Origin: a virus
Virus record (IMG/VR): IMGVR_UViG_3300030329_002391
Location: 1-47,839 of that record
Direction: 5' to 3' (one strand)
Length of the DNA: 47,839 nt
Part shown: positions 6,501-46,829 of the stretch, one piece after another
How the letters are laid out: every line of letters starts with the position of its first letter
How positions within the stretch are numbered: position 1 is the first letter of the stretch
The notes under the pieces: model-generated
Database searches by the model: none
Seen by the model: the letters and a program-made list of their open reading frames with translations, nothing else
Told to the model about the DNA's origin: nothing
Made by a program: the position numbers and the translations under genes

Positions 6501-7912
6501 ACTGTTACCGTTCCCCCAGTAGCAACGGAGAGCCGATCACCCCCTGCCGCCTCATGTATAGAAAACGAACCGTCTGATGGGATTTTAAACCACCACTCTG
6601 ACGTTCCTCCTCTGTAAAAACCCACTGGCCAATCCGTGGCAGTATTTACCACCAGTGGGTAGGAGGCATTAGGGGTCATACCGATTCCAACGTTGCCAGC
6701 GAGCTTGGTAGTTCCGTCAGAATTTATGGTCAGAATATCAGAAAAATCAACCGTGTCGTTTGCCGAGCCGCTTCCCGCTGTTTGAAACACATGTTTTGTG
6801 TCAGTCATGTAGTACCGACAAGCTCCACCGTTAGATGTATATTTATAGTCAGTGTCACCGGAGACAGTACCGTAGTATGCGTTATTGTAGAGGGAAAGAT
6901 CGCCGTCGTTAGAATTACCCCACCTTGCAACCGAACCTCCATACCCAATTTGTAAAACATTGTACGTTGAGTGCCATGCGGATGGTGTTACTTTTATACC
7001 TAACCGACCCTCGCTATCCAGCCGCATGGTTTCACCACCATCGCCAGTATAAAATGTTGTATATCCAGCAGCAGAAGCAGCTTTAATTCGTAGCTCATTG
7101 GTGTCCTCCCTGACGACTTGATGCGAACTACCTCCAAGGCGTAAACCTTTGCCTATGTCGGTGAATATATAATCGCCAGCGACATGAAGTTTATAGTCGG
7201 GAGAAACCGTGTTTATACCAAGCCGACCGTTAGCATCAATCCGCATTGACTCCCCATCGGTTCCTTGCGAATGGAAAGCTAAATGGCCACCAGAACCAGC
7301 CTTACCGTAGATCAAAGGGATGTTTGCCCCGGCTGTGCCTCCCCATGTTAGGTTGTATTCGCTCTTTAAATTTAAACTACCGTCAACATCCAGTTTAACC
7401 GCTGGGTCATCTACGCCTATGCCCAATGAACTCCCCTTCAAGGTCATGGCCTGACCGTTGTTGGTGAAGAATTTTATTATTCCAGAGTTTAGGGCTTCTA
7501 TGCGTTCGTGACTGTTATCCCACTGAAGGGACATGCCAGAATCCATGCGAATGTGACCTCCAACAACATCCAATTTTTGAGTAGGCGCAGCAGTCCCTAT
7601 ACCTAGCCCCGTTGCCGTGAGACGCATACCCTCCGACCCATCTGGATCAAACCGCAAATAATCGCTACCAGACGAACCCAATATTCTCGTGTTACTGTCA
7701 CCAAATGCTAGTTCGTTGGCTGTAGCAATTGTTAATCCACCTGACAGTTCGCCGCCAGCGAGGGGGAGGTGTTCGTTTAGCTGAAGAACTCCATCAGCAG
7801 CAGCGTTGCCGACATAGAGTTTTTTGTCCGTTAGATTTACTGCCAGTTCACCAGCCTCTAAACCGCTAGGTACACCGCTAGTGTTACGCTTAATCTGAAG
7901 AGTGTTGGCCAT
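3557..7912 (-). CDS. long tail fibre/spike with C-terminal S74 self-cleaving chaperone, 1451 aa
   Basis: The N-terminus (NTLQIKRNTSGVPSGLEAGE, then LAVN and LYVGNA) is a virion-attachment module also found in the neighbouring fibre. The shaft contains about a dozen spaced repeats of the type 'G-I-G-T-x-x-P-x-x-K-L-x-V' (for example LGIGTAAPTQKLDVVGG and WGLGTTAPSSKLHVDGG), typical of trimeric beta-structured phage fibres. The last 100 residues match the peptidase S74 intramolecular chaperone: SDYRLKE with the expected Ser1350/Lys1355 spacing, VGFLAHEAAE and SEMVPILWAALQDALKRIEELEAK. The chaperone should cleave itself off after trimerisation. Role: host receptor recognition. Only one copy of the ACCTAAC word found elsewhere lies inside this gene. 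Confidence 0.93.
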   Translation of the reverse strand: MANTLQIKRNTSGVPSGLEAGELAVNLTDKKLYVGNAAADGVLQLNEHLPLAGGELSGGLTIATANELAFGDSNTRILGSSGSDYLRFDPDGSEGMRLTATGLGIGTAAPTQKLDVVGGHIRMDSGMSLQWDNSHERIEALNSGIIKFFTNNGQAMTLKGSSLGIGVDDPAVKLDVDGSLNLKSEYNLTWGGTAGANIPLIYGKAGSGGHLAFHSQGTDGESMRIDANGRLGINTVSPDYKLHVAGDYIFTDIGKGLRLGGSSHQVVREDTNELRIKAASAAGYTTFYTGDGGETMRLDSEGRLGIKVTPSAWHSTYNVLQIGYGGSVARWGNSNDGDLSLYNNAYYGTVSGDTDYKYTSNGGACRYYMTDTKHVFQTAGSGSANDTVDFSDILTINSDGTTKLAGNVGIGMTPNASYPLVVNTATDWPVGFYRGGTSEWWFKIPSDGSFSIHEAAGGDRLSVATGGTVTVGGNLTVGGSCTLAAISGTSATFSGSVSLYNGSNLAGRFEVDSGLDTYINSYGSGNFIKFKQNNADILTLFETFISIPDSKELRFGDGSDLRIRHNGTDSYIDDVGTGRLLIRSNHVRIGKYTGEEMIDAYADGAVKLYHDNVVRLETYTSGAIVTGQLGIGLTPSAEQKLHIRCTTDVNLAIGNASGSVKFNALNDAVTANVPMEFGASLFKLVGGNVLVGSLTTTQKVTKFSGNSTGITIGGATPTLALWDTDNADHVTYVANAGGNGYLGTATASPIYFQPGGVTELTLEAGVLNFTRTADEGERSLMVRNSNTTLFVGVEKEENGNRFSGSSSDNAFIGTTSNDGLEFGTNNSVRGVITAGGNWGLGTTAPSSKLHVDGGDIKLSYTSGTNPFTLRAINDAFWMIGDNAATQEWVMSRAYSHDDAFHFRYAPGTTGAGAGIMKIGQQSKNHANYTHGITAFYTNGIEAMRIGPDRKVGIGTSSPGGTLHTVALPGTTGLMTVGATGNNIAQFYTSGSATVMVLDSDGNVGIGETSPVGGLVVRTDDVDATASANVSQYSLNIHGNGVSDGEEIGLALTAWASGGSLTTGYTPGAAIVHERSGSNSKGHLHFRVKGSTTANAALTTAMTILDNGKVAIGTAAPNGTLDVAATGNETNPTIQVGYSTSSRANYRFGLYSDSETGYLSNKNGNNGIRFVHRGGTVMQVGYGGDASTPYVGIGDSAPSSLLTLKATEDGAEDIFAIKADDNGNLFRVGKDSNDHGYVELFDGASTPIKVRFNSSGSSYFNGGGLAIGSTDPGTHGLYVYGTTLLKNTVQCDDTLTVGSTLSGTSATFTGNVFVSGSIGAGTTVDTDYKIKAGGHVNVVGNLYCWTLYESSDYRLKESVSPWNVSTASSLVQSLPVYSYRWNDKSESRESQTQDRVGFLAHEAAEKIQINNLVDGEKDGERYQRLAHSEMVPILWAALQDALKRIEELEAKA

Positions 7913-9142
7913 TTAGTATGTTCCACAATCTATCGTTAGTCCTGCGGGTGTAGTCGTCCATGCTGGAGTTCCGTTGTTCGAGTAGAGTATTTGATTATTG
8001 TTGCCTTCTGCCGTGGCCTGTATTGCCGATGTTCCATTTCCGTATAGGATACCATCAGCCGTAAGCGAGGTTGCACCTGTCCCCCCTTTGGCTACCGAAA
8101 GAGTCCCAAGCGCATTTGCGTCACTATAGTTAACAGTAATTTTTTCTCTACCGCCATGTGTAGCAAAGTCCAATCCTCCAGTTGGGACGAGCAGTACAGA
8201 CAAGGTGTTGCCGCTTTTATATATTCCATCACCAGCCGTGATCTGCCCTGCACCACTGAACTGTGCAAAAGCTAATCCCGTTGTGCCTACGGTTATGTCG
8301 TCGTTGGTCGTAAGTACCCAACCTGAGTCGGCGTTTACAGTCCCCTCTTCTACGAAGGTGAATGCTCCAGCCGTTACCTCTGTATTGGTGTCAAAGTCTG
8401 TAGCCCTGACAAAGATTGTGCCTGAATCACTCCAAGTCCATATACCGTTTTCACTGGCCGTAGACTGATCCTTAACGAGAACCCTGTCCCCGTCCTGTAC
8501 CGTTACCCCATCTATGGTCGGGGCAGAGGAAAGGTCAGGGAAGCCAGACCCAACAGCCGTTGTAGTTGCCAGCCTTACAGATTCCTTTACATCCAAGCCA
8601 GACGAGTTGGCATCTACATAGGATTTATTGGCCGCATCAGTTGAAAGCGTAGGTGTTGCCAGACTTGTTATCTTCTGGCTGCCCATGCTTACCGAACCAT
8701 CTGGTGCAGTAAACTCATTGAGCTTCTTCCCGGTAACAGCAGTAGATCCAGCCAGACCAGCAGGGGTTAACGCCCTGTCCGTAGCTGTACCGGCAGTTGT
8801 TTCAGCAGAGGTCGCAGTCTCAATGATGCCGGATGTAGAGGTGTCAGCTTCGGGCAAGTTACCAGAAGGGACTACGCCGTTTAGGTTGCCAGCAGTAATG
8901 CTAGTTAGCCCTGCGCCGTTACCGCTAATAGTTTTATTGGTAAGTGTTTGCGTGGAAGCAAGGTCAACAAATGCCCCCTTACCTCCGATGGCGTTCTTGG
9001 TACGGTCTGCATCTGTGCCGCTACCGTGACCTATGTAAAGCGTGTTGTCCTGCTCGTTGTATGCAAGCTCGGCTCTGGCAAGCGACCCCGGCGCACCTGC
9101 CGCACCCGTCTGCCTTGATTTAATTTTTAGTACATTACTCAT
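7913..9142 (-). CDS. tail fibre protein, 409 aa
   Basis: The start MSNVLKIKSRQTGAAGAPGS followed by LARAELAYN and LYIGHG parallels the N-terminus of the long fibre encoded next, so both probably attach to the same virion site. The middle carries fibre phrases such as DLASTQTLTNKTISGNGAG, RALTPAGLAGS, TDAANKSYVD and VSVAKGGTGATSLTADGILYG, all common in phage fibre shafts. There is no S74 domain. It ends at a short tip (PAGLTIDCGTY) only a base before the next gene, so it may be a connector or short fibre that works with the longer one. Its ATG overlaps the preceding stop as TAATG. Confidence 0.9.
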   Translation of the reverse strand: MSNVLKIKSRQTGAAGAPGSLARAELAYNEQDNTLYIGHGSGTDADRTKNAIGGKGAFVDLASTQTLTNKTISGNGAGLTSITAGNLNGVVPSGNLPEADTSTSGIIETATSAETTAGTATDRALTPAGLAGSTAVTGKKLNEFTAPDGSVSMGSQKITSLATPTLSTDAANKSYVDANSSGLDVKESVRLATTTAVGSGFPDLSSAPTIDGVTVQDGDRVLVKDQSTASENGIWTWSDSGTIFVRATDFDTNTEVTAGAFTFVEEGTVNADSGWVLTTNDDITVGTTGLAFAQFSGAGQITAGDGIYKSGNTLSVLLVPTGGLDFATHGGREKITVNYSDANALGTLSVAKGGTGATSLTADGILYGNGTSAIQATAEGNNNQILYSNNGTPAWTTTPAGLTIDCGTY

Positions 9143-9555
9143 TAGAATGATCCTCCACCGATAATTTTATTATCCATTTCCTGTTCGTTGCCTGTACCCA
9201 TAGCAGATCCGTCTATACCTAACGCATCTTCTAGGTTTTCAAGCCTGTCCTTGTAAAAGTCAGAGAACGAATTGGTGTCTTTGTTTTCCTCGTATAGCTT
9301 TTTTATGTTACTCGCATTTATCTGCGACTCTACTTTTTCTAAAGAATCGTTTGTTTCTTTTCTCACCCTGTCCAGTACCGTTGTTGCTTCGTTCCACCAC
9401 TCAGGAACATCCTTTTCGCTGGCTGGGGCAGGCGGGAGTTCTCCCTCTATGCGCTTTGGACTGGTAGCAGTTTTCTGCCTTAAGGGAGATTCTGTCTCCG
9501 ACTTGATTGCTTCCGTGGCCGGAGATGAGAACAGAAACGCATTCATACCTAACAC
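9142..9555 (-). CDS. small coiled-coil protein between the giant ejection protein and the fibres, 137 aa
   Basis: The protein has a polar, Pro/Lys-rich N-terminus (ESPLRQKTATSPKRIEGELP), a helical coiled-coil stretch at about residues 55-120 (VLDRVRKETNDSLEKVESQI, SDFYKDRLENLEDALG), and a Gly-rich end. No family is recognised. The frame opens with GTG at 9555, and an ATG four codons later (9546) is an equally plausible start. A GTTAGGT heptamer lies exactly between the two candidates. Position suggests a virion assembly or linker protein. Confidence 0.75.
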   Translation of the reverse strand: MLGMNAFLFSSPATEAIKSETESPLRQKTATSPKRIEGELPPAPASEKDVPEWWNEATTVLDRVRKETNDSLEKVESQINASNIKKLYEENKDTNSFSDFYKDRLENLEDALGIDGSAMGTGNEQEMDNKIIGGGSF

Positions 9556-9557
9556 AA

Positions 9558-12500
9558 TTAAAAAGGTAACGCGCTTCCCTTGTCAACGGAGAACGACTTG
9601 TAGTCCATTCTTGGACGAGCAAAACCGGCAGGTGCTTCTTGTCTTTTGAACGGGTCGAATCCTAACTTCTTATCCTTCTTGCCCATATAGGGTTCTATCC
9701 CAAGTTCGGTTGCGTACCTATTGAATAGGCGTATGGCTTCGCTTATGTCCCTTCTGCCGCCCCCGGCTGTTCTCAGTATTCTGCTGAAGTCATTCTCAAG
9801 TGGAGCAGTCCTGAACACGTAGCGTAGCGGGTGGTACATAGTCAGGGATGCCTTGACGCTCTTCTCTGGGTCTTCCTTGCCCATAGCTTTTGCAGCCCTC
9901 AAAGCCCCCCTGTATGCCCTTCTGAATGCTGCCCCGTCGTTGGCATAGGCCGAAAGAACCATCTCCGTCATCCAAGGTTTCATTGGTGTAGGGAGCGCCC
10001 CTCCGCCGGCAAACCTTCTTACATCCAATTCCAACTCCTTGCCCGCTGACCTCAGGATGTTGTTGACGTTAACCCTTGCGGCGTATCTGGACTCAAAGTT
10101 GTCCGCACCTAACAGATTGTTTGCCAACTGGAAGTTCTGAAGCGCACCTCCAAATCCTAAGGCCATCATTGCGGGTCTTCCCACGGTAGCGTATGTGGCA
10201 TCCCCCTGTCTGATCCAAGTGCCTGTGGCCTTGACCAGCGATAGGGCTGAGTTAACCGCGAACACTCGGTTGTCAATCCCGAACTGCCTCGCGTTATCCA
10301 TATTCAGCAGGGTGTTGGCGACCTCGCCGCCCATACCAAATGTACCAACCCTGTCCAGCCTATCTAACATCACGAAGAATGGGTTAGCTTCCCCGAATCT
10401 CATCAGGTTGGCTCGTTTACCAACCAGCTCTTCGTCGTATTTGTCCCGAAGCATAGCCCAAGCCAACGACAGTGGAACAATGGCCATCCCCATTCCTATC
10501 GTGAAATCCCTGTAAGCCTTGAGCGCCTTGCGCGTGTTCGGGTCTTTAATGTTAAGATTCTGAGAGTCAACCAGTTGAGGAAGCACCTTGGCTAGATCAG
10601 CTGTTTTAGCCACACCCCATCTAAGTAGCGGCCTAGCTGCTAACATAATCTTATTCGACATCATCACGGACGGTTGAGTGACGGCGGTATTTTCCAGCAT
10701 CATCTCGGTGGCAGATAGGGCAGCTATGCGACGATAATGCTCATCGGTTAGCGGATTCGTTTTGCCGTTCAGAACCCATTCCCTCCCAAGCCGAGTTGGG
10801 CTAAGGCCGTGCTGCTGCATTGTGTTGACTATGTAATCGAAAGCCTTCTCGTTCTGTATTAACCCGAACAGTCTATCCTTCAGTCCCAAATCTTTAGCTG
10901 TTAGCTGATAGTTTTCGTCTGCCATTGCTTCAGGGTTTTGGGAAAAGAACTCTCCTGCCCTAGCGACGAAGTCAGTAAAGAGATCAAATGTTGAATCCGT
11001 GACGCCTGCGCTCTGCCAGTTAACAAACATGGTGAACGGGGCGGCTTTGAGCGTGGTGTAAAGCTGATCCTTGTTTTTGGCCTTGCCGATTCCAGCTTGC
11101 AAAAGTACACCGATCCCACGGGATAACGCTTCCATCGCCTTGCCGGTCATCCCCTCTGAGCGAAACTCATCTCCCATAGCCCCGACGTATCGCTGTCTAA
11201 ACGTGACCAAGGCGTCGTCGTCCACCATCCCGAGTCTTGTCCTCCGCTTCACCCTGTCTGCGTTGACGTTCCAGCTAACAGGGAGAGCCTGTATTAGCGT
11301 GCCTATGGCGTCTAGTGCTGTGTACTTTACGTTCTTGAACAGACTGGAAAGCGCAAATGTGCTTAGTCCATACTTTCGGAACGGCCCCTCTACTGCCGTA
11401 CTTAAGTCGGTGATGGCGGTCGATAGTCCCTGAACGGTGGCCCCAGTAAGCGAACTGATAAGCTCCATCGCTGCGCCGTACTCAACTTGTGTTGTCTTGT
11501 TTCTGTTGGCTTGCTCGAACCTTGCCATCTCAGCCTTAACCATAGCTAGGTTCTTCTCGGCAGCCTTGAGAACCCTAACTGTGTAGTGTCGTGGGTTGCC
11601 CCCATCCTTTCCGGTGGCTGACTTTTTAATTATCTCGCTTATCTTACGGCTCTTCATCCTCTTGCTGACTTCGCCGTTATCCATTACCTCAGAGTAAATC
11701 TTTTTGTAGGCTATTACTTGTCCCTCCAGCTCGCTTACAAGTGCATCGAAGTCCCTCCTTATCCCTACTAAATCCCTGCCAAACGCTGACTCATACGAGA
11801 GAGCCTCTGCGTAGTAGCGCATTTCACGTTCCGAGTAAGTCGAATAAGATAGCCACTCTGCCGGGAAATCCTGAGCCATTCTGGCGTCCATAACGGTGTG
11901 AACAGGAACCGGGTTCGCGGCCTGCTTGGCTTCTAGCCCTTGGTAAAAGGTGCTTAGTCGATTGTAGTACTTCGGAAAGACGCGCATGATGCCGGTTACC
12001 GTGTCAACGATTTGCTCTTCAGAGGTTGCGGTTGATTGGGCTAGATTATAGGCGAACTGAATAACACGCTCCGCCCCCTCTACTCCCTCGGTTGCTTCCC
12101 AAGCAGCTGCGATCTCGGCAGGGTCATACGCTATCCCACCCTGCTCTCTTGACGAATCAAATGCTCCAGTTGGCCTGTTGATTATCGGTTCAACAAACTC
12201 CTTCATTGTTCGGTCATCGAACCTTCCTTCAAACAGCGCAAGCAACGCTTCAGGGCCAGCCTCCGCCGCAGCTCTAACATTTCCATCGGTCAACGCCTCC
12301 TCAGGTGTGCTGCTCTGATAATCAAATTGTTGATTCAGGTGGTTGAATAGGTCTTTTGTATTGTCGTTCAGCTTTCGCATGAGCGAGAACATTGGTGAGC
12401 CAATCGCCTTTCGGAATACGTGACGAACCCCTCCGCCGGGAAGCTTTATTTCATCGAGAACCTTAACCCCCATCTGCTCTCCCATGTTTACGATGTATCC

Positions 12501-15500
12501 GTTTGTCTGTGCGCTTGACCTAAACAGTCTCTCCAGCTCCGACCACGCCTTATCGCTTTCCCCGTTGGTTCTTTCACTTAGATACAGCTTGCCCCTCTTG
12601 AGTACTTCGTTTTCTGCTGCTGCAATATTGCCGGGGAACATCTCTATTATGTGTGAGTTCTCCGCTGCGAATGTGAAGAATGGATCGTAAAATCTTGCCA
12701 TGAAGCTTTCTCTGCTTGAGGCATTCGTAGCCTTCATAGCGTTGTCCATTGCTTCGGCCCACTTCGCTCCCTTTCCTGTAGTCACACGTCCTCCATATGT
12801 ATGAACGTAGCTAACCCACTTGCGCAGCCGTCTACCTATTTGCCTTGACTGCGCACTACCGATCCCTTCCAGCTTGGAAGCCATATCCCCTATGGCCCTA
12901 GAAATAAAGTTTTGTTGCAGTTCTTTCTGGGCGAAGTCGGCTTGTACCTCCATTAGGCGATCCCTCTGTCGCTTAATCTTACTGTGCCTCTCCCCCTCTT
13001 CCCCGTTAACAGCGAGCCATTCACCTTGCAGCTGTATGATTTTAGTTATCTTCCCGAAGTCCTCTGTTGCCGAAAGCCTGATCTTTGTTTGGTAAGACCT
13101 TGTGCCGTCCGGCTTTTTGCTGTTCCACATCTCATCGACACTAAGGTCGGGTCTGGTTGGAACAAACACCCAGCTTTCGTGAAGCGGTTCCCATTGACCA
13201 ACTCCAACGACCCTTGGCTTGCCTGTTGCCGGGTCTGGTTCTTTCTTGATGACAGCCTCCTCTGCCTCAAACAAAGATGAAATCTCTTCCTGCCTCTGGC
13301 GCATTGCCGGTTCCAGCACAACGCCGGCATCAACTTTATTCTGTAGCTTTTCTTGGTAGTTGAAGATCAACCTTATCTTGTTCTTGAGGGTCAGTATGCG
13401 CTGGTGAAGTCGTTCGCCTTCCTTTGTCTTGGTGATTGCGGTTCGCAGCAGACGACGCGCCTCGGTTATCCCAGCCGAGTTGTCGCTCAGCATTAAGTTG
13501 ATTGCCCTGTCTACGTTGCCCCGGTTCTTGTCGCTCCTTAATTGCAACAGGATCATGGCCTCCGGGTAACGCTTGGCAAAACCAAGGACGGACGCGATAA
13601 CCACATTGTCCTCCACCTTGCTACCTAACGTCGTTCCTGCCAGCTCAGTTCGTATCTGTAAGGCAAGCTGCTCAGGGGCGGTGTTTTCAAAATCCAAGTC
13701 CATGTTGCCCATTGCCGCAAACACGTCCTCCATGTTTAGAGCTTTTCGCCTCGCCTTCTCTAGGGCTGCTTTGTAATTCTTGTACTTATATTTCGGGTCA
13801 AGGCTTTTCAGTATTTTAGCTACTAGGTGCGGCTTGCTTGTCTTGGTTTGGTTGGCGTATTCCTTTAACGCTTGGTCAATGATTCCGACAATGTTTTCCG
13901 TGTAGGTTGTTAGGTCGGTGTACTTGGCCTGAAACTCCTTCATCTTGCTGGCGTGTCTCTTAGCTCGGTTCATTGAGCTTTCAGCCTTCCTCGAATACGC
14001 TGCACCCTTGGCGCTCTCGAAAGCGGCCCGCACCTGTTCTATTCTTCTGTAAATTTCTTTGGCTGCCTTTGGTCTGGCGGTTGTTTCCTCCAGATTCTCA
14101 AGCATAGCATCGGCTCTCGCACCGTTCTCCACCAGCTTTGTGATTTCATCGGCCGGGACATACGACTTAAGGAAATCCTTAACAAACTTCTCGAACCCTA
14201 TGCCTTCTGCGTTCTCGCCGCTGTTGTTGAACATTAGGTACAGCTCCTCATAGAATGTCTGCATATACTCCTCGACGGCCTTCTGTCTAGATAGTAACGG
14301 CTGTGGGTCAATCGGGATTTCCTCTATGCTACCATCTTCCGAGAACTTAACTCGGCGCTTGCTGTTCCAAAGTATGTTCTTTACCGAGGTGGACGGTATC
14401 TCCTTAAGCTCAACGATGCCGGTGTTGAAGTCATATACTTTTGTTACCTCAGAGTTGTCGCCTCGATTGGCCTGCCCGAACTCCTCGGCGGTCATCGGTG
14501 CGCCCCCCATCATGGTTATAGCGTTAGGGGTGTAGTTTCCTGTTAGGTGGCTTTGCATCCTCAGTAGGAAATACCTGCGAACGATCTCGCCGTTGACGTT
14601 CTCGCTGCCCAGCAAGGCTCGCTGCACCTCAATGTATGCTCGGTAGTAAAGCTCCCTCAGGTAGTTCAGCACTTTCTTTACCCAAGACTTTGCTTCGGAA
14701 GGGTCGAACCCAGAAGCTGCCAGCTCCCTTGCCACGGAATCAACCAGCCGTTCTTCCTGCATGGTCTCGAACACCGGGTTATCCGGGGCCATGTTCTGCG
14801 TCAGCTTCTCTGTGTCAACTTGCAGTTCTTCATCCGTTAGGTGTTGAACCGAGTCATGGAAGACACCTCTCAGGTCTGGGGTGAACTGGCCAAAGAGATC
14901 ATGTCCCGCCTCGTGCAGCAGCAGCCTGAAATTATCAACGGTTGGATTGGCTAGGTCTCCGATAACAAGTTGGATGGCCCTGTCTGAGTACATACCTAAC
15001 TGCTTGTTCAGTCCGTCCGTAAGAACCTGAACGTCCACACCTGACGTAGCCAATGATTGCAGAGTGGCTATGAACTTCTGCTTAACCTGCTCATCGCTTG
15101 GCCTGATCGGGTCTACTTGCTCTTCCGGGCTGAACTTGATTGTCTGACCCAAAGTAGCCCTGTTGTACCCAAGCACCTCGGTTACTACCGACTCAAGAAG
15201 TGAGCCTTCGCTCGCGTTGAAGAAGTTAACGAATAGCTGGACGATCTGATCCCATAGGCTTCTCCTCTCAGGTGACACCCGTGTCCTTTCTGACGCCTGC
15301 ATTGCGTTCAGTAGTTTCTGAAAATCTGGGTTCGTTAAGCTTGAAGCGAACTCGTCAACATCAGCCAGTCCGTACTCCAACAAGCCAACCCCTTCCTTCT
15401 GAGACGAGGCGTACAGTATTTCAGAAATCTTGGTGGCTTCTTCTCTTGTTAGGTCAGTGAAAGTCTCGCTTGGCAAAGATTCCAAATGTCTTTCGATGGC

Positions 15501-24428: not shown

Positions 24429-24442
24429 TAGATTTTACTGCT

Positions 24443-26104: not shown

Positions 26105-26119
26105 GATTGTTCTCCTTGG

Positions 26120-33817: not shown

Positions 33818-33818
33818 G

Positions 33819-34568: not shown

Positions 34569-34572
34569 GTCA

Positions 34573-34899
34573 TCAGTAAGATGTAGATGTAAAAGTTAAA
34601 CCAGCGGGGCCGGTAATTGCAGGGCCACCAGCCACGGTGTAGCTAATTGAAACATCAGCCCTGTCAACATACACCTTGTTGCCCTTCGTTAACTTCAGAG
34701 GGGATTCCAAGGTGGTGGTTGAGCTTGCAGGAACCTTAAGAAGCTGGTTTCCGCTGTCACTTCCGTCCCTTATCGTCGCACCTGCCGCCGTGGTATCCAC
34801 ATTGATAATGTCCGTTATGTATAGCGTCTGGTTTGCGTCCACTGTGCCGGGATACACCCCTGCGCCAGTAGAAATTAAACTCTTGGGTACTCCTACCAT
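34573..34899 (-). CDS. small head-associated protein, 108 aa
   Basis: A beta-rich, Gly/Thr-rich small protein (LISTGAGVYPGTVDANQTLY, TVAGGPAITGPAGLTFTSTS) without charged helices. It resembles capsid decoration or head-completion proteins in size and composition. Its ATG overlaps the preceding TAA as TAATG, so the two small genes are coupled. No family is recognised with confidence. Confidence 0.72.
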   Translation of the reverse strand: MVGVPKSLISTGAGVYPGTVDANQTLYITDIINVDTTAAGATIRDGSDSGNQLLKVPASSTTTLESPLKLTKGNKVYVDRADVSISYTVAGGPAITGPAGLTFTSTSY

Positions 34900-35234
34900 T
34901 ATGATTTACCTTTCTTGTTAGATTTTTTCTCTGGTTCCTTAACCTTACTCACCTTGAGTGCCTCTGCCTCGGTTACCTCAACGTCTTCTTCCGCAGGTGG
35001 GGCAGGAGGGGGCTGAGTTAGTTGAGACCCGGTTGCCGAGCCGGACGAAAACATCATTTTTTTTTCCGCATCGTATTCCTCTTTGGTAAGGATAGTGAGC
35101 GATCCGGGGTGATTCTTAACAAGCTCATCCACCTTCTCTCCTTCCATTTCGTAGAGCCAACTTCCCCTGCTCGCCGAGATGCCCGGTTCAGATATCAAGT
35201 GAGAGGCCATTGTTACAAAGTATTTCTTAGCCAT
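34899..35234 (-). CDS. small structural-block protein with disordered charged tail, 111 aa
   Basis: The first 60 residues look globular (KKYFVTMASHLISEPGISAS, KVDELVKNHPGSLTILTKEE). The rest is disordered: Pro-rich QPPPAPPAEEDVEVTEAEAL, then a Lys-rich end. The pattern is common in small proteins that sit just after the capsid gene in podovirus genomes (head-closure or completion candidates), but nothing fixes it. It is the first gene after the terminator at 35284-35317. Its start has no strong ribosome site (GAAGC before ATG). A run of nine A in its coding strand is discussed among rejected items. Confidence 0.72.
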   Translation of the reverse strand: MAKKYFVTMASHLISEPGISASRGSWLYEMEGEKVDELVKNHPGSLTILTKEEYDAEKKMMFSSGSATGSQLTQPPPAPPAEEDVEVTEAEALKVSKVKEPEKKSNKKGKS

Positions 35235-35283
35235 AATGCTTCAAACAGGTCGAACTTAAAACTGTTAGGTGTAGGTTGTAAAC

Positions 35284-35317: not shown

Positions 35318-35334
35318 GTAAATCAATTCAACTG

Positions 35335-35712: not shown

Positions 35713-35728
35713 AATATTTTAAGTGTTA

Positions 35729-35758: not shown

Positions 35759-35770
35759 GGGTGATAATTA

Positions 35771-37819: not shown

Positions 37820-37917
37820 AATAATTTCTCCTACCTCGTTAAAGGTTTCAGGCAGAATGTTAGGTCAGCTTACCGGAATCGCAAATCTTCAGGCAAAAAA
37901 CCAGTAAAAAAAACAAG
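37820..37917 (-). promoter_or_regulatory. leader of the capsid gene, 98 bases
   Basis: A short non-coding stretch upstream of the capsid start. It contains the ribosome site (GGTAGGAG) and a copy of the dispersed heptamer at 37859-37865, plus two T-rich runs near its distal end that follow no visible hairpin. I found no convincing -35/-10 pair. It is one of the few non-coding gaps in the window. Confidence 0.5.
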
Positions 37918-38028: not shown

Positions 38029-38032
38029 GTCG

Positions 38033-39394
38033 TTATCCGAAGTTGATCCCAAGGTCGTCTATTAACTGTTTTCCGGGGTGGTTTTCGTCCACCACCTCAC
38101 CGTCTGCTGCGCCGGGACTTGACGCTCTCGCCGCCTTCGGAGGGTTGACTGGCTGCGGCTCTCCTTTCGTACTATTCTGCGACTGTCCTTTCGCTACCCC
38201 CCTTTGGAAGCCGAAAGACTCCAGTTCTTTTACCCTGTTTTCTAAGATTTCTTCCGCTTGAGTTATCGCCTTACTGCCGAAATGCTCAAGGATATCGTTC
38301 TGATCCCATGTCCAGAAGCCTTCTTTGTTGGGGGCTTGTGCGTATTTGGATGGCGTCAGAAATCGCAGGCCGTTCTTTTCGGTGTTACCAGCACGAGCAA
38401 ATGATTCCGCTGCCGATTCTATGTTGTCTATTAGCTTATAGTATCCGTCGTTGACTTCATTGTTTACGCCATGCCATCGCTTAACAAAATCGTCAGCCCA
38501 CTCCATGTACTTGTCCTTCTCTTCGGAGAATACTTTATACCTAAGCGGGTCGCTTTCCTTTATCTCCTCCATCTTGGAGAACTCATCATACGCTCGACCT
38601 GCCTCCTTCAAGGTAGACCTAACCTGCGGCGTAGCCCTTATCTCATTCAGTTCCCCCTTTAGTCCGTTGATTGTTTCCTCGTATTCCTTCTTAACATCGT
38701 TAACTATTTCGTCCCTGAACTTGTCCCTCCGCAAAGTCTCCCTCTCTGCCGGTTGGATGGTTGGCTTGTTGACCCGCACGTATTCCATGAACTCTTCGTC
38801 TTGGTCATCGAATGATCTGTTGGGGTCTTCGCGTTTGGATTTCTCTACGTATTCATCTAGGCTTTTGTAGAAGTCGAGTAACTTTGCTGCCTTGCCGGTG
38901 TGTTTACCTTTTGATTCTGCATATTTGTACAGGTCAAGCTCATCTCTTTGTTCACCTATTAACTGATCTTCATAGGTGTCAACCTTTTCTTCCTGCTGCG
39001 GGGGCGGCTCTGGCTCGTCAGGGTTTTTCCCTCTCGCCTCAAGCTCTTCCCTAACCACCTTGCGAAACGTGTCTTCGTCTAGCTTCGGCTTAACAGTGAA
39101 CTCTTTCTTTGGTTCTGGTTCTGGTTCTGGTTCAGGTTCAGGCTCCTCGACCTTGGCTTCCTCTATCGTTTCAGGCTCTGGCTCCGCCTTTGGTTGCTCC
39201 TCCGCTTCCGCTTCCTTCTCTGTCTTGATGCCAAGATCGTCCCATAGCTGAGACAACATGGGGTCATCGAGAGAACTAGTCGGCTCATTGGACTGCTCCT
39301 CTGTGGGTTGTGCCTGCTCTTTCTCCGTCGCTTGAGGCTCTGTTGCTGTTGCCTCTGTTTGCGGAGCCTCTTCTGCTGCTGCTGTTTCCGCCAT
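38033..39394 (-). CDS. scaffolding protein, 453 aa, acidic
   Basis: Immediately upstream of the capsid gene. The protein is extremely acidic at its N-terminus (ETAAAEEAPQTEATATEPQA, then Glu/Pro-rich EPEPEPEPEPEPK at about 90-100), with a predicted coiled coil at about 200-290 (DVKKEYEETINGLKGELNEI) and a polar C-terminus. This matches podovirus scaffold proteins (T7 gp9, P22 gp8 types), which fill the procapsid and are released. The Glu-Pro run is encoded by tandem GGTTCT/GGTTCA hexamers (about 39111-39145, plus strand). No protease motif is visible. Confidence 0.85.
   Translation of the reverse strand: MAETAAAEEAPQTEATATEPQATEKEQAQPTEEQSNEPTSSLDDPMLSQLWDDLGIKTEKEAEAEEQPKAEPEPETIEEAKVEEPEPEPEPEPEPKKEFTVKPKLDEDTFRKVVREELEARGKNPDEPEPPPQQEEKVDTYEDQLIGEQRDELDLYKYAESKGKHTGKAAKLLDFYKSLDEYVEKSKREDPNRSFDDQDEEFMEYVRVNKPTIQPAERETLRRDKFRDEIVNDVKKEYEETINGLKGELNEIRATPQVRSTLKEAGRAYDEFSKMEEIKESDPLRYKVFSEEKDKYMEWADDFVKRWHGVNNEVNDGYYKLIDNIESAAESFARAGNTEKNGLRFLTPSKYAQAPNKEGFWTWDQNDILEHFGSKAITQAEEILENRVKELESFGFQRGVAKGQSQNSTKGEPQPVNPPKAARASSPGAADGEVVDENHPGKQLIDDLGINFG
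39111..39145. repeat. hexanucleotide tandem repeat encoding Glu-Pro
   Basis: Plus-strand GGTTCT and GGTTCA units repeat five to six times and encode the E-P dipeptide run of the scaffold protein. This is a simple-sequence repeat likely to vary in length between relatives. Confidence 0.75.
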
Positions 39395-39410
39395 AAAATG
39401 TCAAGCCTTT

Positions 39411-39428
39411 GGATATCCTAAGATATCC
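39411..39428. promoter_or_regulatory. perfect inverted repeat GGATATC-CTAA-GATATCC between portal and scaffold
   Basis: Seven paired bases on each side of a 4-base spacer lie in the 37-base gap between the portal stop and the scaffold start. It could be an operator for a dimeric repressor, or a small RNA hairpin upstream of the scaffold start. No T-run follows, so it is not a terminator. Confidence 0.5.
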
Positions 39429-39431
39429 GGG

Positions 39432-41744: not shown

Positions 41745-42251
41745 ATTCAGCCTTAACGAAATCTTCTTCCAAGTGGTGTAATAGCAGAGCCACATAGGAC
41801 GGAACCTTGTCCGCCTTCAGCCAGCGTTTGAATTGCCACCACTCCACACAGCAGATGGCAGCCGCTTCCGGCAGGGTGACTTGCATTAACCCACAGCATT
41901 TCTTTACCCGATCCATTGTCCATCCGTCCCACAGACCGAGGTCTAGGTAGTGCCTAGCAATCCTCGCCGTGGCTGGACTTCCTAGTATTCGTCGCTTTCT
42001 CCTCCTGCTTCGCCTTCGCGCATCTTGAATTTTACGGCCTTTTTTTTAGCCGGTTCCGGCTCTTCAGTAGAGTAAGAGTCAACAGACACTCCCGTAATTG
42101 AGAGAACTGCCTGCTCGCTAGACGCCTCATCAAGGGTAGCTTCTATCTCCATCGAACACTTCTCGCCTGCCCCTTTTCTGGAAAAGTAATCCCTTAGATC
42201 CGAGTCGTCGGTTAGGTCGAGAACCACCTTGTCGTTTACTTGTATCGCCAT
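41737..42251 (-). CDS. predicted -1 frameshift fusion, 171 aa, upstream of the portal
   Basis: The 89-codon ORF at 41982-42251 contains A AAA AAG at 42039-42045 in the correct phase for tandem -1 slippage. After the slip the frame is open for 100 codons and ends at 41737, overlapping the portal start by 8 bases. The unique extension (LGSPATARIARHYLDLGLWD, MDRVKKCCGLMQVTLPEAAA, CCVEWWQFKRWLKADKVPSY) reads like real protein and has no ATG, GTG or TTG in frame until 41916. The residues directly after the slip are unusually Arg-rich because this stretch is dual-coded. Alternatives are an independent 59-residue gene starting at ATG 41916, or an indel in the run of eight A during sequencing. Confidence 0.6.
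41982..42251 (-). CDS. small acidic protein, zero-frame product, 89 aa
   Basis: Zero-frame ORF between large terminase and portal: MAIQVNDKVVLDLTDDSDLR, a central TLDEASSEQAVLSITGVSVD, then the Lys-rich EPAKKKAVKFKMREGEAGGE and a stop (GESDEY). It is a compact, mostly beta/acidic protein with no recognised family. In the frameshift model, most ribosomes make this short form and a minority make the 171-residue fusion that shares residues 1-71. Position suggests a head-vertex or packaging accessory role. Confidence 0.8.
   Translation of the reverse strand: MAIQVNDKVVLDLTDDSDLRDYFSRKGAGEKCSMEIEATLDEASSEQAVLSITGVSVDSYSTEEPEPAKKKAVKFKMREGEAGGESDEY
42039..42045 (-). other. slippery heptamer A AAA AAG for -1 frameshifting
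   Basis: The coding strand has a run of eight A followed by G. In the zero frame the codons are AAA AAA AAG, so the classical A AAA AAG heptamer (as in E. coli dnaX) is in phase. An AGCCG-GAAC-CGGCT hairpin overlaps its upstream side. No strong downstream pseudoknot is evident by eye. Confidence 0.65.
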
Positions 42252-42257
42252 AATTCC

Positions 42258-43763
42258 TTATTGCCTCCCGCAATGGATAAGGCTGGGACGGGCTTCGTCA
42301 ATTTGCAAGGTATTTCTCATGCCGTTCAGCTCAAGCTTCAGCATGGGGTAGGACAGCGCATCGAACTTGTGAATGTACTTGGATCGCTTAGGTTTAGTGG
42401 GGTCTTTCTTATCGGATATCAGATGTTGAAGCATATCAATTGTGACCTTGCATAGTGCGCTAACATAAACCTCGTCATTGAATAGCTTCTGTTGAAGTAA
42501 CCTAACCCTAGCCTCGACACTCCCCTTCCCCTTCGGACACCCTTGTAATTTAATTCTCCCCCCACTAAATCGCTCAATATCCCAGCTGTCATAGCTACCC
42601 TCGCCACCCGGATGCCACTGGTTTATGGCTGAGCTATCAGATATATGTTCGTACTTAAACTCGAAGCCCATCTTACGGTTCCAGTAATCCATCTTCCTGC
42701 AAACCTCCTGCGCTAACCGTTTATACAAGTGCCTCACCCCCATGTAGTCCATCTCATCGAACACAATCCATAACATTTTGTCCTGAGTTGGGATCATTTG
42801 CATGAAGGTTATGCTGCTATAAACCTGCCCTAGATCATACCCAACGGTAACGGGGAAGCCGCTCATTGGCTTGAGTCCAGTCCCCTTATACATATCTCCC
42901 TTTATGTGATTGGACGGTACAAAGTACTCCTTAAACAGGGACTCCCCAGTTGGTCTGTCCACCCACTCTCCGTCAATAAGCCTACGTTTTTCAACGGGAT
43001 CTGTGCGAAGAATGCGGTGAAGGTTTTCAACGTAGCCATCAGGAAGTCGCTTGATGTTCTCTGTTACAGGCACATGGTAGACCCTGAAGTCATCATCTTT
43101 CGTGCCGTCCTCCTCATAGCAGTCCTCGAAGAATGTCTTATACACCCAATGACTCGGCCCCTCTGGGTTGCATGAAGCACAGTATTGTTGCGGCCCGGTG
43201 ATGCCTCTGCGTCTACCTAACTGAGCTGCCGGGTAAGTGAAGTACTCTTTTCCATCGCATTGTGTTAGCTCATCCACGTAGATGTGAGATGGGGCCGGCC
43301 CCTTGATGCGCGTCTCAACCGCAGCTGCATAAGGGATGGATATAAGAAGAAGTTTAGACCAGCCGCCATGACGGTTACCGATCCAGCGATGCCTGTCTTT
43401 TGTGTTGGGGTCTAGCTTTGCGCTCGATGTCTCAAGCCCTATGCCATCAACCCAGAACGGAATAATAAGGGTCTCAAGGTCATGCCAGATACCCTCTGAA
43501 CCTGTCCTTATTGATGGAGATAGGATCATCACCAACGCATTATCGTTTTCGTATGCGTGGCGAATAAGTTTATGCCCGAAGGCTATTGTTTTACCGCTCC
43601 CCTTCTCGCCGTAACCTAACACAAACCTAGAACTGTCATCGAATATTTTTTTCTGGGTTTCATTGAGGTCGGGATGCCACTCGGCTGTTGGCGGGGCAGG
43701 CGCAGGGGCCATGCTTGCAAGGGCATCTGTTTCGAGTTCGGCTATAGAAGGCTGACCCACCAT
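42258..43763 (-). CDS. terL: terminase large subunit, 501 aa
   Basis: ATPase plus nuclease that packages DNA into the procapsid. Visible motifs: Walker A GYGEKGSGKT at residues 50-59 (Lys58), Walker B IYVDE at 161-165 (Asp164, Glu165), coupling motif SCNPEGPSHWVYKTFFED at 197-214, then RNase H-like nuclease residues D310 (VGYDLG), D336/E337 (VFDE), D376 (HISDSS) and D468 (HKFDAL). Length is typical. The start overlaps the metallopeptidase-like gene by 22 bases. Packaging type (pac or cos) cannot be read from this window. Confidence 0.95.
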   Translation of the reverse strand: MVGQPSIAELETDALASMAPAPAPPTAEWHPDLNETQKKIFDDSSRFVLGYGEKGSGKTIAFGHKLIRHAYENDNALVMILSPSIRTGSEGIWHDLETLIIPFWVDGIGLETSSAKLDPNTKDRHRWIGNRHGGWSKLLLISIPYAAAVETRIKGPAPSHIYVDELTQCDGKEYFTYPAAQLGRRRGITGPQQYCASCNPEGPSHWVYKTFFEDCYEEDGTKDDDFRVYHVPVTENIKRLPDGYVENLHRILRTDPVEKRRLIDGEWVDRPTGESLFKEYFVPSNHIKGDMYKGTGLKPMSGFPVTVGYDLGQVYSSITFMQMIPTQDKMLWIVFDEMDYMGVRHLYKRLAQEVCRKMDYWNRKMGFEFKYEHISDSSAINQWHPGGEGSYDSWDIERFSGGRIKLQGCPKGKGSVEARVRLLQQKLFNDEVYVSALCKVTIDMLQHLISDKKDPTKPKRSKYIHKFDALSYPMLKLELNGMRNTLQIDEARPSLIHCGRQ

Positions 43764-44071
43764 TTTAATACGCCGGGATTATTTTTCCACATCAGGCACA
43801 GGCCAGTTGCCACTCGATGAGCCACCCTCTCTTCCTTCCTCCACTCCACCCCCATTGCGTACCCTATCGCATGGATGCACTCGTGAAGAAAGGTGTCTGC
43901 CATCGCTTCGTCTGTAAGGGTTGAACATATGGCTATTGTTTGGGTTGTGTAGTCACACCATCCATCAGCTTCAGCCGCGATCCTTTCGGTCTCCTCAACA
44001 TACTTAATCTTGTACGTTAGGTTTAGAATCCGAACGCTCTTTGGCCGTGACGTTGACCTCTTTCGGCTCAT
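43742..44071 (-). CDS. zinc metallopeptidase-like protein between the terminase genes, 109 aa
   Basis: The motif DTFLHECIHAIGYAMG contains HExxH (His63, Glu64, His67), followed by a Glu pair at 80-81 in WRKEERVAHRVATGL that could supply the third ligand. Size and order fit the small SprT-like or ImmA/IrrE-like zincins often found near phage terminases; these may act on host repressors or in head assembly. The gene is wedged in: it overlaps the small terminase by 68 bases and the large terminase by 22. The ribosome site is poor, so translation is probably coupled. The substrate is unknown. Confidence 0.75.
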   Translation of the reverse strand: MSRKRSTSRPKSVRILNLTYKIKYVEETERIAAEADGWCDYTTQTIAICSTLTDEAMADTFLHECIHAIGYAMGVEWRKEERVAHRVATGLCLMWKNNPGVLKWWVSLL

Positions 44072-44687
44072 TGATCTGTATGGCTGTTACGGGAGAAAAC
44101 CCCGGCTTCCCCCTTGCTCCGCCCCCTTTCCGTTCCTCCATTTTCTGCTTCACTACAGCATCAGTCAATGCAGCTTTGTTGGCCCTGTCGTAAGCCTCTA
44201 GTACGTGACGCACTAGACTAGACTTGTCTTCTCTTAATGTTTTTTCTCTTTCACCATCAACACCGCCGGATAACTCTTCTCTTATCTGGGTAATGTCACC
44301 CATCAAATCACTAAATAATTTAACAACTCCGCCTCCAATGAGTTGCCTTGCAGACCCAAGACTGCTCCTTCCGAAATCAAGAAAGGCCATAGCCTCTGCC
44401 TTTGAATGCCCTGTTATGCCCATTGACTCCAAGCCTTTAGCCATGACTTGATTCTCTTTCTGTATAGCCTCGGCATCCGACAAAGGCTGCGGCTTTCGAT
44501 GCAGCGTACTGCTAACCCCCTTGTCCAGCCACCTGCCCTTGAGTGCTGCATCCCTTGACATCACTTGCCGAACAGTGTTCTGGCTTACCCCCATTACCCG
44601 CGCAGCTTCGGTCTGGTTGCCATCGGCCTCTTCCAAGGCTTTGTGCAGCCGCTTCCTCCAAGCATCATCGTACTTTATTTTTCCCAT
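44004..44687 (-). CDS. terS: terminase small subunit, 227 aa
   Basis: The N-terminal 50 residues carry a Fis/resolvase-type helix-turn-helix (ALEEADGNQTEAARVMGVSQ, NTVRQVMSRDAALKG; the 'NQTEAARxMGVSxxTV' phrase is clear), followed by a helical oligomerisation region (about 70-160) and a basic disordered tail (KEVNVTAKERSDSKPNVQD). Order immediately upstream of the large terminase gives strong context support. It binds the packaging site and delivers DNA to TerL. Its ATG overlaps the nuclease gene stop (TAATG). Confidence 0.8.
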   Translation of the reverse strand: MGKIKYDDAWRKRLHKALEEADGNQTEAARVMGVSQNTVRQVMSRDAALKGRWLDKGVSSTLHRKPQPLSDAEAIQKENQVMAKGLESMGITGHSKAEAMAFLDFGRSSLGSARQLIGGGVVKLFSDLMGDITQIREELSGGVDGEREKTLREDKSSLVRHVLEAYDRANKAALTDAVVKQKMEERKGGGARGKPGFSPVTAIQINEPKEVNVTAKERSDSKPNVQD

Positions 44688-45112
44688 TACAATGGAGCGT
44701 CTTGAAACTCTTTAATCGGGAGGTGTACCACGGGTTCGATGTCAGCGGAATCCCCACGGTCGGTGCGCCCACCCATCTTCACCTCCACGTCGCACCCGTC
44801 GGCGCGAAAGAAACCTAAACCGTCTACCCACTTTGCACCAACCCAGAAATGGGAGCGGGTAACGCGAGCGAGGTCGCACCCTGATGCAAACTTAGCCAAC
44901 GAGAGGATGAGGGTGGGGTATCTGTTGCGCGAAACCTTTCTTCCTTTTAGCTCAATGAATCCGTGCAAAGAACCATGATTATCATAGACTATCCAATCAA
45001 CCCTGTACGAGATGGGTAGCTTATAGCAGCGCAATCTGTGTCGGCTTAACAGTAAGGACTCTACTTCTCCCTCCACTAGCCGGTCAGCTGCCGTTTCGTA
45101 CTGCGGTCTCAT
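44687..45112 (-). CDS. PD-(D/E)XK nuclease-like protein, 141 aa
   Basis: A small nuclease core: Asp39 in YRVDWIVYD and the E-x-K motif IELKGRKV (Glu54, Lys56), preceded by a helical VEGEVESLLLSRHRLRCYKL. This matches the compact fold of VRR-NUC, Holliday-junction-resolvase-like and other phage PD-(D/E)XK enzymes. The glutamate near residue 15 could complete the site. Located between integrase and terminase, it may process branched or packaged DNA, or cut at integration. It overlaps the integrase by 29 bases. Substrate unknown. Confidence 0.7.
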   Translation of the reverse strand: MRPQYETAADRLVEGEVESLLLSRHRLRCYKLPISYRVDWIVYDNHGSLHGFIELKGRKVSRNRYPTLILSLAKFASGCDLARVTRSHFWVGAKWVDGLGFFRADGCDVEVKMGGRTDRGDSADIEPVVHLPIKEFQDAPL

Positions 45113-46169
45113 CGCTTGTCCCGATGTATATGTCAGTTGTTTCCGTACTCGAATGACCCAAGTCCTTGGCCACGTCCTCTTTTGTTGCGCCTGTTTTGAT
45201 TTTGTTTTTAGCGTAATGCCCCCGTAGACCGTGGAAACTTTTCCCCCGTAGCTCCGTTGCCTTAGCGGTAAGCTCTATGTTCATGGCTGTCTTTTCAATT
45301 ATCTTTTTAAACTCGCTGCTCAACCAAGACCTTCTGCTCGTATTCAAGTACACCTCTCTCTCAGCAGGGAACACGTAAGTTGTGTCGTTGACTGGGATAT
45401 TGCTTAATGTTTCAGCCAATCCCTTCGACATATTTAAGCTGACTCGCTTGTTACTTTTGTCAGTCCATACGGTTATCCTGCCCTTGCCAGCGTCGATACT
45501 GTCCCACTCAAGGGAGCAGATATCACCAAGCCGTAACCCAGTCTCAGACGCCAAGTGAACCGCCGTCTTCCAGAAATCGTTGCAATACTTCAGCACCATA
45601 CCGATCTCCTGCGAGGTTAGACTTTGGTGGGACTTGGTTTCTTTCTGCTTGTGGGTCAGCAAGTCCATCTTAACCTTACACAAATGCGCCGGTCTGTGGG
45701 TCATCCACCCCTTGTTGTAGCAGTATTCTAGAAAACTTTTGATTGCTGCCTTCCTTACCCTACGGGTTGACGCCTTAATGCTGCTATTCTTTGGGTTAAT
45801 GAAGTTGCTCGCGACCTCATCCGTCACCTCTTCAGGTGATTTCAGGCGTAGATTTTCGTCATCAATGAACTTGGCCGCATAGGAAACATGGCTCTGCGCT
45901 GTCCTTCTTGTTAGGTTGTTGTTAGCCCAGACCTCGTACCGACTCAGCGCATCACGCAGACGGATATCCTTTCCGCTTACTATCTTTGTTACTATCTCGT
46001 TGGTTAGTCGGGTTATGTTAGCCACCCTCTCCAGCTCACCAACCTTTGCGCTCTCTGCTATCTTGGTTGCCTCTTGATAGTCCGTTGTCTTTGTGTCGGC
46101 CTGCATCATCGAGCCGTCTTCGGCCTTAAAGCAGACGTGATATGTATTATTTACCTTCTTCAGTTTCAT
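45084..46169 (-). CDS. int: tyrosine integrase, 361 aa
   Basis: Site-specific recombinase of the lambda-integrase type. An N-terminal arm/SAM-like domain (about 60-150, with RTAQSHVSYAAKFIDDENLR) precedes the catalytic domain (about 180-355). The full catalytic set is visible: R213 (ETGLRLGD), K238 (TDKSN), H313-x-x-R316 (SFHGLRGHYA), H339 (LGHSS) and nucleophile Y348 (DIYIG). All residues are intact, so the enzyme is probably active and the phage temperate. ATGA overlap with the preceding coiled-coil gene. No attP core or tRNA was recognised nearby. Confidence 0.95.
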   Translation of the reverse strand: MKLKKVNNTYHVCFKAEDGSMMQADTKTTDYQEATKIAESAKVGELERVANITRLTNEIVTKIVSGKDIRLRDALSRYEVWANNNLTRRTAQSHVSYAAKFIDDENLRLKSPEEVTDEVASNFINPKNSSIKASTRRVRKAAIKSFLEYCYNKGWMTHRPAHLCKVKMDLLTHKQKETKSHQSLTSQEIGMVLKYCNDFWKTAVHLASETGLRLGDICSLEWDSIDAGKGRITVWTDKSNKRVSLNMSKGLAETLSNIPVNDTTYVFPAEREVYLNTSRRSWLSSEFKKIIEKTAMNIELTAKATELRGKSFHGLRGHYAKNKIKTGATKEDVAKDLGHSSTETTDIYIGTSDETAVRNGS

Positions 46170-46426
46170 TTCAGTTCCATTTCATTCAGTTCTTCCTGTA
46201 AAATCTGACTGTTTGCCTTGGTTATCTTTGACTTTAGTTCCTCAACCTTAGCTTTGTAGTCCGTGTACTTGGCTCTTATCTTCTCGGTTTTCTTTTCGGC
46301 TGCTAACGCTGCTCTCATCTGTCGCAGCCGCCGATCCTCGCGAACTATGGTTGCAGCTAGGTTTTTCCTAGCCAAGCGGAGCATCCTTATCTCCCCTTCG
46401 AGTTCATTTATTCTCTCCTGCGTCAT
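46166..46426 (-). CDS. coiled-coil protein upstream of the integrase, 86 aa
   Basis: Entirely helical with heptad-like runs: RINELEGEIRMLRLARKNLA, VREDRRLRQMRAALAAEKKT and KAKVEELKSKITKANSQIL. Very basic in the centre. No domain is recognised. It overlaps its upstream neighbour by 23 bases and the integrase by 4 (ATGA). Such small coiled-coil proteins next to integrases can be recombination accessory factors; inference only. Confidence 0.7.
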   Translation of the reverse strand: MTQERINELEGEIRMLRLARKNLAATIVREDRRLRQMRAALAAEKKTEKIRAKYTDYKAKVEELKSKITKANSQILQEELNEMELK

Positions 46427-46790
46427 AGGTTTTGCGCCACAAATTAACCAAGTGACTATAGTACTCGCCCCACCTGCTGTCCTTTCGCAGGTAATGAAAC
46501 GCTCCTCTCCTGTGCAGATACTGAGACAATCTCTTCATGTGCAAAGGGTTAGTGAAGTCCACACCGCAAGCAACCGTGAAGTCGCGAACGGTGTAGACAT
46601 CCACCCCCTTCCATGTTGTTGCATGAGATAACCCTTCCACCATTGAGGGAGGCAAACCAGATAGGCTCGCAATCTCGCAGGTGGATAGGGGTCTTGTGCC
46701 GTTACCGCTGCCATTGGCCCGTGGCTTTCTAGCCATCAGTCTAACTAGAACCGGCGGGTACTTATCTATGCGCTGATAGAACACAGACAT
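46404..46790 (-). CDS. possible HTH DNA-binding protein, 128 aa (excisionase candidate)
   Basis: Residues about 35-58 (STCEIASLSGLPPSMVEGLS) resemble a MerR/excisionase-type helix-turn-helix, followed by ATTWKGVDVYTVRDFTVACG, which resembles the wing or short beta-strand expected after it. The N-terminal 30 residues are basic and flexible. Small winged-HTH proteins two genes from an integrase are often excisionases, but key residues cannot be verified by eye, so this stays a candidate. The ribosome site is weak; an internal Met at residue 19 is an alternative start. Confidence 0.55.
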   Translation of the reverse strand: MSVFYQRIDKYPPVLVRLMARKPRANGSGNGTRPLSTCEIASLSGLPPSMVEGLSHATTWKGVDVYTVRDFTVACGVDFTNPLHMKRLSQYLHRRGAFHYLRKDSRWGEYYSHLVNLWRKTYDAGENK

Positions 46791-46829
46791 CCGAGGACTT
46801 TAGTTAGGTAACGGTGGCTGTCAATCGCA
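46791..46829 (-). promoter_or_regulatory. short intergenic gap with heptamer copy
   Basis: A 39-base gap between the 122- and 128-residue genes. It carries one copy of the dispersed heptamer (46803-46809), about 13 bases before the next start codon, and TTGACA (46819-46824) with only a weak -10 partner. I do not call a promoter. Confidence 0.3.

Follow-up and report, generated by a model that had tools for sequence, protein, structure and literature searches.

Short recognition words scattered through the genome are already known in temperate phages. The stoperators of Cluster A mycobacteriophages are 20-30 asymmetric sites for an immunity repressor of the L5 type, spread across a temperate genome; they are 13-14 bp long and mainly oriented with transcription, some lie within promoters while most are not promoter-associated, and the motif differs between related phages (PMC6550527). 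Phages lacking recombinases over-represent Chi, a recombination word (PMC3784561). Here we analyze the heptamer ACCTAAC (GTTAGGT on the opposite strand) in a 47,839-base fragment of a temperate phage genome, the IMG/VR virus record IMGVR_UViG_3300030329_002391, which we refer to as the window. The word is in strong excess, mostly inside genes, and it also stands at conserved noncoding positions in related phages, nearly always in the sense orientation at gene starts, which is the new finding here. Comparison of the sequences suggests that it is the word of either a regulator or a Chi-like system.

A single heptamer in excess

The window contains 37 exact copies of ACCTAAC, 16 on the plus strand and 21 on the minus strand (P = 0.51), running from position 6998 to 46803-46809 at 0.77 copies per kb, or about one per 1.3 kb. 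Markov models of orders 1-3 predict 4.9-6.1 copies, and an order-4 model, which already holds parts of the word, predicts 13.7. ACCTAAC ranks first among all 7-mers (z = 12.5) and is the sole extreme one; the runners-up, at z of about 6-7, are overlaps of the word itself plus TCATCGA and CTGCTGC. A preliminary description of this DNA had reported at least 36 copies against about 6 expected, and the excess holds up, with no other heptamer equally raised. In 40 genomes simulated under an order-3 Markov model the maximum z of any word averaged 5.8 and never exceeded 7.45, and the maximum among 7-mers is 6.6 in lambda, 4.6 in HK97, and 6.4 in P1; therefore, the excess is unusual even among phages. 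Words with one mismatch are near background, AGCTAAC being mildly raised (15 versus 6.7 expected), and the 6-mers CCTAAC and ACCTAA are raised only through lying inside the heptamer. The NCCTAAC variants, put at about four in the preliminary description, number 14, which is still the background level.

The excess does not arise from codons. Inside genes we count 35 copies, versus 4.7 (standard deviation 1.8, maximum 9 in 60 shuffles) after shuffling synonymous codons and 5.9 (standard deviation 2.2, maximum 10 in 60) when neighboring bases are held fixed. All four stop-free frames are used (CTA Leu 15, TTA-GGT Leu-Gly 13, CCT-AAC Pro-Asn 4, GTT-AGG Val-Arg 3); the remaining two contain stop codons. 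Composition, codon bias, and a protein motif are thus ruled out by the shuffles and the simulated genomes, in agreement with the initial view that no single codon preference or protein motif explains the word. Because both orientations are equally used inside genes (19 sense, 16 antisense), the signal lies on DNA rather than RNA. Of the "DNA- or RNA-level signal" first suggested, the nucleic-acid level and DNA therefore stand and RNA falls for the scattered copies, and it is well supported that ACCTAAC acts on double-stranded DNA. The spacing of copies fits random scatter (coefficient of variation 0.91; Kolmogorov-Smirnov P = 0.40). Conservation is limited to the 7 bp plus a weak T before (15 of 37 copies, P about 0.003) and a weak purine after (29 of 37, P about 0.003).

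Positions 1-6997 hold no copy (P about 0.003, post hoc). The late operon ends in this 7-kb stretch, which comprises most of a tail-fiber gene with homologs in unrelated phages plus small genes beyond; it may be a recently acquired module.

The word at gene starts and inside genes

The main genes of the window all lie on the minus strand. They include an integrase (45084-46169) and the large terminase terL (42258-43763), both recognized with Pfam and PHROGs, a probable capsid gene (35771-37819), and a giant gene (9558-24428). The 37 copies are as follows.

6998-7004, plus: coding copy, the leftmost
7347-7353, minus: coding copy
9217-9223, plus: coding copy
9547-9553, plus: at the start of gene 9142-9555 and antisense to it; the choice of start codon decides whether it is coding or 5' noncoding
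10107-10113, plus: in the giant gene
13623-13629, plus: in the giant gene
13909-13915, minus: in the giant gene
14542-14548, minus: in the giant gene
14836-14842, minus: in the giant gene
14994-15000, plus: in the giant gene
15448-15454, minus: in the giant gene
15661-15667, minus: in the giant gene
17748-17754, plus: in the giant gene
20757-20763, minus: in the giant gene
20890-20896, minus: in the giant gene
21552-21558, plus: in the giant gene
22873-22879, minus: in the giant gene
23452-23458, minus: in the giant gene
24857-24863, minus: coding copy
25708-25714, plus: coding copy
26699-26705, plus: coding copy
30714-30720, plus: coding copy
32026-32032, minus: coding copy
33585-33591, minus: coding copy
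33949-33955, minus: coding copy
35264-35270, minus: noncoding, 30 nt upstream of gene 34899-35234; orthologous copy in L017
36467-36473, plus: in the probable capsid gene; common to L014
36926-36932, minus: in the probable capsid gene
37859-37865, minus: noncoding, before the probable capsid gene; overlaps the -10 of TTGCGA-N16-TAACAT
38617-38623, plus: coding copy, common to L020
42211-42217, minus: 34 nt inside small gene 41982-42251; common to L020; relatives have the word in that gene's upstream spacer
42500-42506, plus: in terL; common to no relative
43215-43221, plus: in terL; word also in L009, L010, L013, and L016, the amino acids QLG being identical in all 11 sequences
43614-43620, plus: in terL; word also in L010 only, the amino acids being identical in 10 of 11
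44016-44022, minus: in the overlap of genes 43742-44071 and 44004-44687; common to several relatives
45910-45916, minus: in the integrase gene
46803-46809, minus: noncoding, 13 nt upstream of gene 46404-46790, the first of the integrase operon, in a conserved sigma70-like promoter, TCGCAAAATAATGCGATTGACA-N9-ACCTAAC-TAAAGT

No near relative of the window was found among 50,697 annotated phages; close relatives are present in IMG/VR as short contigs, from samples that we take, from their IMG identifiers, to be largely marine. The preliminary description correctly placed three copies (35264, 37859, and 46803) in noncoding gaps, and its remark that the window gives no hint of the word's role proves too pessimistic, since the surroundings of these copies are promoter-like and conserved in relatives. 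For instance, the integrase-operon promoter reads TCGCAnnnTAATGCGATTGACA-N9-ACCTAAC-TAnnnT, that is TTGACA-N16-TAnnnT, of the sigma70 type; the word is invariant in five lineages (the window, L010, L014, L016, and L017) and reads ACCTAAT in a sixth, L050, while the 8-9 bp preceding it vary. In a second example, the counterpart of the 35264 copy lies at 11744 of L017 (GTGTTACCTAACACGGTTAG, GTTACCTAACACGGTTAG). L009 and L020 retain the promoter frame around the 37859 copy, with ACCTAAT in place of the word. Finally, the spacer separating terL from the next gene carries ACCTAACANARTTAGATA and in eight relatives (L011, L013, L014, L015, L017, L018, L021, and L050) reads ACCTAACANARTTAG(A/T)TA directly before ATG; this spacer is absent from the window, L009, L010, and L020. 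Rfam returned no match. The promoter-like, conserved context of the noncoding copies favors a protein-binding regulatory site.

More distant relatives have variants of the terL spacer element: TTACCTTAA..TAAGGA in L030, L022, and L023, TTACCCTAA in G021, and TTACCTAAA in G032, nearly all sense-oriented where counted. The element at gene starts is thus family-wide, with a spelling specific to each lineage, and it is only in the window's group that this spelling has spread widely into genes. G021 has GTTACCCTAAnnnnn.. as a recurring element and TACCCTA as its top 7-mer (15 versus 2.9); this excess is mostly the element itself, coding copies being 9 versus 3.5 at best, and the local words of other lineages are at background.

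In the close relatives, the density of noncoding copies is 5 times that of coding ones (17 in 6.7 kb versus 69 in about 142 kb). The two classes share flanks: T precedes 12 of the 17 noncoding copies and A follows 12 of 17, and among coding copies T precedes 30 of 69 (P = 2e-5, the relatives not being independent) and A follows 30 of 69. The coding copies therefore resemble the gene-start element beyond the seven bases. Spacer copies also have a dyad-like form, CTAAC-N3-(G/A)TTAG, a partner half that the integrase-promoter and scattered copies lack.

The close relatives (TerL 80-94% identical) also have a raised count. Coding copies number 13 versus 3.4 expected in L009, L010, and L020 together, 10 versus 2.7 in L013 and L014, and 13 versus 5.4 in six other close relatives, among them L017 with 3 noncoding and 0 coding copies. 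At about 60% portal identity or less the word is at background, and in the terL tree the word-rich relatives are not a single clade. Individual sites turn over. Leaving out L012 and L029 as duplicates, 8 of 18 aligned window sites are kept in the nearest relatives, versus about 28% for any 7-mer, and 10 of 64 in the remaining relatives, versus 10-19% for any 7-mer; 4 of these 10 are noncoding. Because beyond the nearest relatives positions turn over like those of any 7-mer, because relatives carry their own copies at other positions, and because amino acids within terL are often unchanged where the word changes, it appears that in coding DNA the number of copies rather than their position is kept.

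Several further observations concern the window and its family. The giant gene encodes one protein of 4,956 residues that carries Kinase-PolyVal and ART-PolyVal domains and probably belongs to the polyvalent proteins delivered along with the DNA; its C-terminal third has no match in the phage collection. We rejected it as an N4-type virion RNA polymerase reading hairpin promoters, as there is no polymerase family match and no motif C. A conserved 787-residue protein is named portal from gene order alone, and the RlpA-like lysis protein has too wide a distribution to point to a host. Before the probable capsid gene, a promoter TTGCG-N16/17-TAnnnT is conserved across the family (L022, L030, L031, L034, and the window); an inverted repeat, short and close to the ribosome site, often comes after it, for example ACCTTCTTGTAAGGG or CTTCTTTCGAGAAG. 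The G021 record has a recurring sense-strand element, GTTACCCTAAnnnnnnAGTAnnTAACAT, at 2622, 6362, 9685, and 16437 of L053 and at 203, 4568, and 7035 of L054, which is probably a phage-specific promoter or operator. Another family member, L037, has a raised CAATCTC/GAGATTG (13 versus 2.0 in 11.6 kb). The close relative L050 includes an early region (3458-6191, 6331-6846, and 8477-9298) with an AAA_5 ATPase beside a VWA (CobT-like) protein, a pyrimidine-dimer glycosylase, and an L5 gp82-like protein.

A regulator's word or a Chi-like word

We propose, with a rough probability of 0.48, that a regulator which binds DNA in a sequence-specific manner recognizes (T)ACCTAAC(A/G) as double-stranded DNA in this temperate marine phage group, and that the word stood first at gene starts and later multiplied into coding DNA. 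Originally it would have formed half of a short element of roughly dyad symmetry, placed at gene starts or inside sigma70-type promoters, and the protein bound there, encoded by phage or host, would control structural genes and the integrase operon. In the window's lineage, single copies (about 33 more) would then have multiplied through coding DNA and been maintained by selection on number rather than position. The regulator might coat the block of structural genes, its bound copies serving for instance as road-blocks in the silencing of a prophage, or it might bridge distant sites. That selection has in this way multiplied a regulator's word into some 30 non-directional structural-gene sites of one lineage, for distributed control or silencing, is a more tentative proposal. 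That one protein reads both classes of copies, and what its role is, are inferences. Gene-start copies are present in relatives with little or no coding excess, such as L017, which supports the regulator, and the chance of an unrelated word overlapping the gene-start element is roughly a dozen in eight thousand.

A number of points weigh against this proposal. The binding protein is putative: no repressor gene lies in the window, the immunity region being outside it, and the fold predicted for the protein under the word-bearing integrase-operon promoter is of low confidence (pLDDT 59). A site of 7 bp is short for a repressor, as a host genome holds hundreds by chance. The dyad-like form is restricted to noncoding elements in relatives; for the scattered copies no second half-site turns up at offsets of up to 30 bp, so we rejected them as hidden dyads or paired sites, and they lack the orientation bias that marks stoperators (PMC6550527). 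The link between noncoding and coding copies rests on one clade, with local spacer words elsewhere not clearly dispersed into genes. In addition, the same selection could have turned an element one base off into the word, and at the ribosome site the spacer element could instead function as a hairpin in the RNA.

The strongest competitor, possible although we hold it somewhat doubtful, is that ACCTAAC is a Chi-like sequence of a host enzyme of the RecBCD/AddAB type, of which a temperate phage without its own recombination system keeps many copies so that its linear DNA is protected and recombined, not degraded. A Chi word makes the nuclease turn from degrading DNA to recombining it, and in the host genome it is over-represented, often on the leading strand. 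A word kept at a density on both strands, mostly in genes and with turnover in position, fits Chi well, and a coding excess beyond codon usage is as expected of one. As a positive control, the top 7-mer in the first 50 kb of P1 is CCACCAG, the Chi core, with 27 Chi octamers (15 plus, 12 minus) versus 2.5 expected, and lambda under the same test has no Chi octamers. No recombinase or RecBCD inhibitor was recognized among the window proteins scanned, a set that does not span the early region. However, Chi predicts neither the sense-oriented copies conserved in promoters and spacers nor the fact that relatives lacking a coding excess have them too. Most Chi words known so far are GC-rich (PMC5959072) whereas ACCTAAC is 43% GC, and in 299 sampled Pseudomonadota genomes the density never rises above about 0.15 copies per kb, versus 0.77 in the window. 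Two bacterial-genome scans for a host found no close prophage, only a relative at 55% portal identity on a short contig of a metagenome-assembled genome, and a plasmid search found no relative. We prefer a single protein for both classes of copies because Chi leaves the conserved gene-start element unexplained. Other density-based functions on DNA, such as lagging-strand priming sites, a modification-enzyme site, or a host nucleoid or silencer protein, would suit an asymmetric 7-mer randomly spaced on both strands at this density, yet they too leave the promoter-linked conserved copies unexplained, and we consider them unlikely. Phages normally avoid restriction sites and do not collect them, and the window proteins that were scanned include no recognizable methyltransferase, both of which count against a modification site. 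Among the functions listed at the outset, a binding site and a Chi-like word therefore stay, while packaging, modification, and nucleoid marks have no evidence in their favor. A compositional or codon artifact, a repeat, or a mobile element is very improbable given the shuffles (5.9 versus 35) and simulated genomes that never came near z = 12.5; flanks differ among copies, and the excess recurs in relatives.

In the literature, ACCTAAC/GTTAGGT matches only MYB elements of plants and further sequences that are unrelated or incidental. We judged the resemblance of GTTAGGT to the integron core GTTRRRY coincidental, only this one word being raised, and two copies within 30 bp, used as a lure for other word-rich phages, returned mostly chance matches or local arrays. 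The unrelated contig L103 has 9 copies versus 2.0, which is suggestive only. Two unrelated viral contigs have clusters in both orientations, with 7 copies within 280 bp (L102, 4694-4971) and 6 within 185 bp (L088, 2787-2971), which look like an operator or origin array.

Comparison with known systems

Words that phages collect rather than avoid reveal a sequence-specific machine that must be satisfied, and in either case ACCTAAC is a direct probe, as a short oligonucleotide could fish out the protein. If the word is Chi-like, it becomes a candidate for the recombination word of a marine host, Chi being known for few bacteria (PMC8022716). If a regulator reads it, the phage would have a distributed form of immunity or silencing that differs from the oriented stoperators.

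Each known system matches the word in part. As with HIP1, the highly iterated palindromes of cyanobacteria, a short word is very abundant in coding DNA; HIP1 is palindromic and linked to methyltransferases (PMC4390886), whereas ACCTAAC is not palindromic. As in Rec- phages carrying Chi (P1 and Rec- lambdoids), one short asymmetric word far above expectation is dispersed in genes, without strand bias as in P1; unlike Chi in P1, this word has conserved promoter and spacer copies and is 43% GC. The C1 operators of P1 are likewise asymmetric ("monovalent") sites for a single repressor, found in many parts of a temperate genome (P1 record annotation), but they are 17-18 bp long, near promoters, and only a handful in the 50 kb analyzed, whereas the window copies are mostly coding. 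The noncoding copies resemble phage operators in their conserved position in promoters and gene starts of relatives. Finally, like stoperators, the word forms many asymmetric sites (37) across a temperate, integrase-bearing phage genome. Bound by the immunity repressor, stoperators block elongation; the word here differs from them in being 7 bp (plus the weak T and purine) rather than 13-14 bp, in lying mostly inside genes, and in its balanced orientation, the noncoding copies alone being sense.

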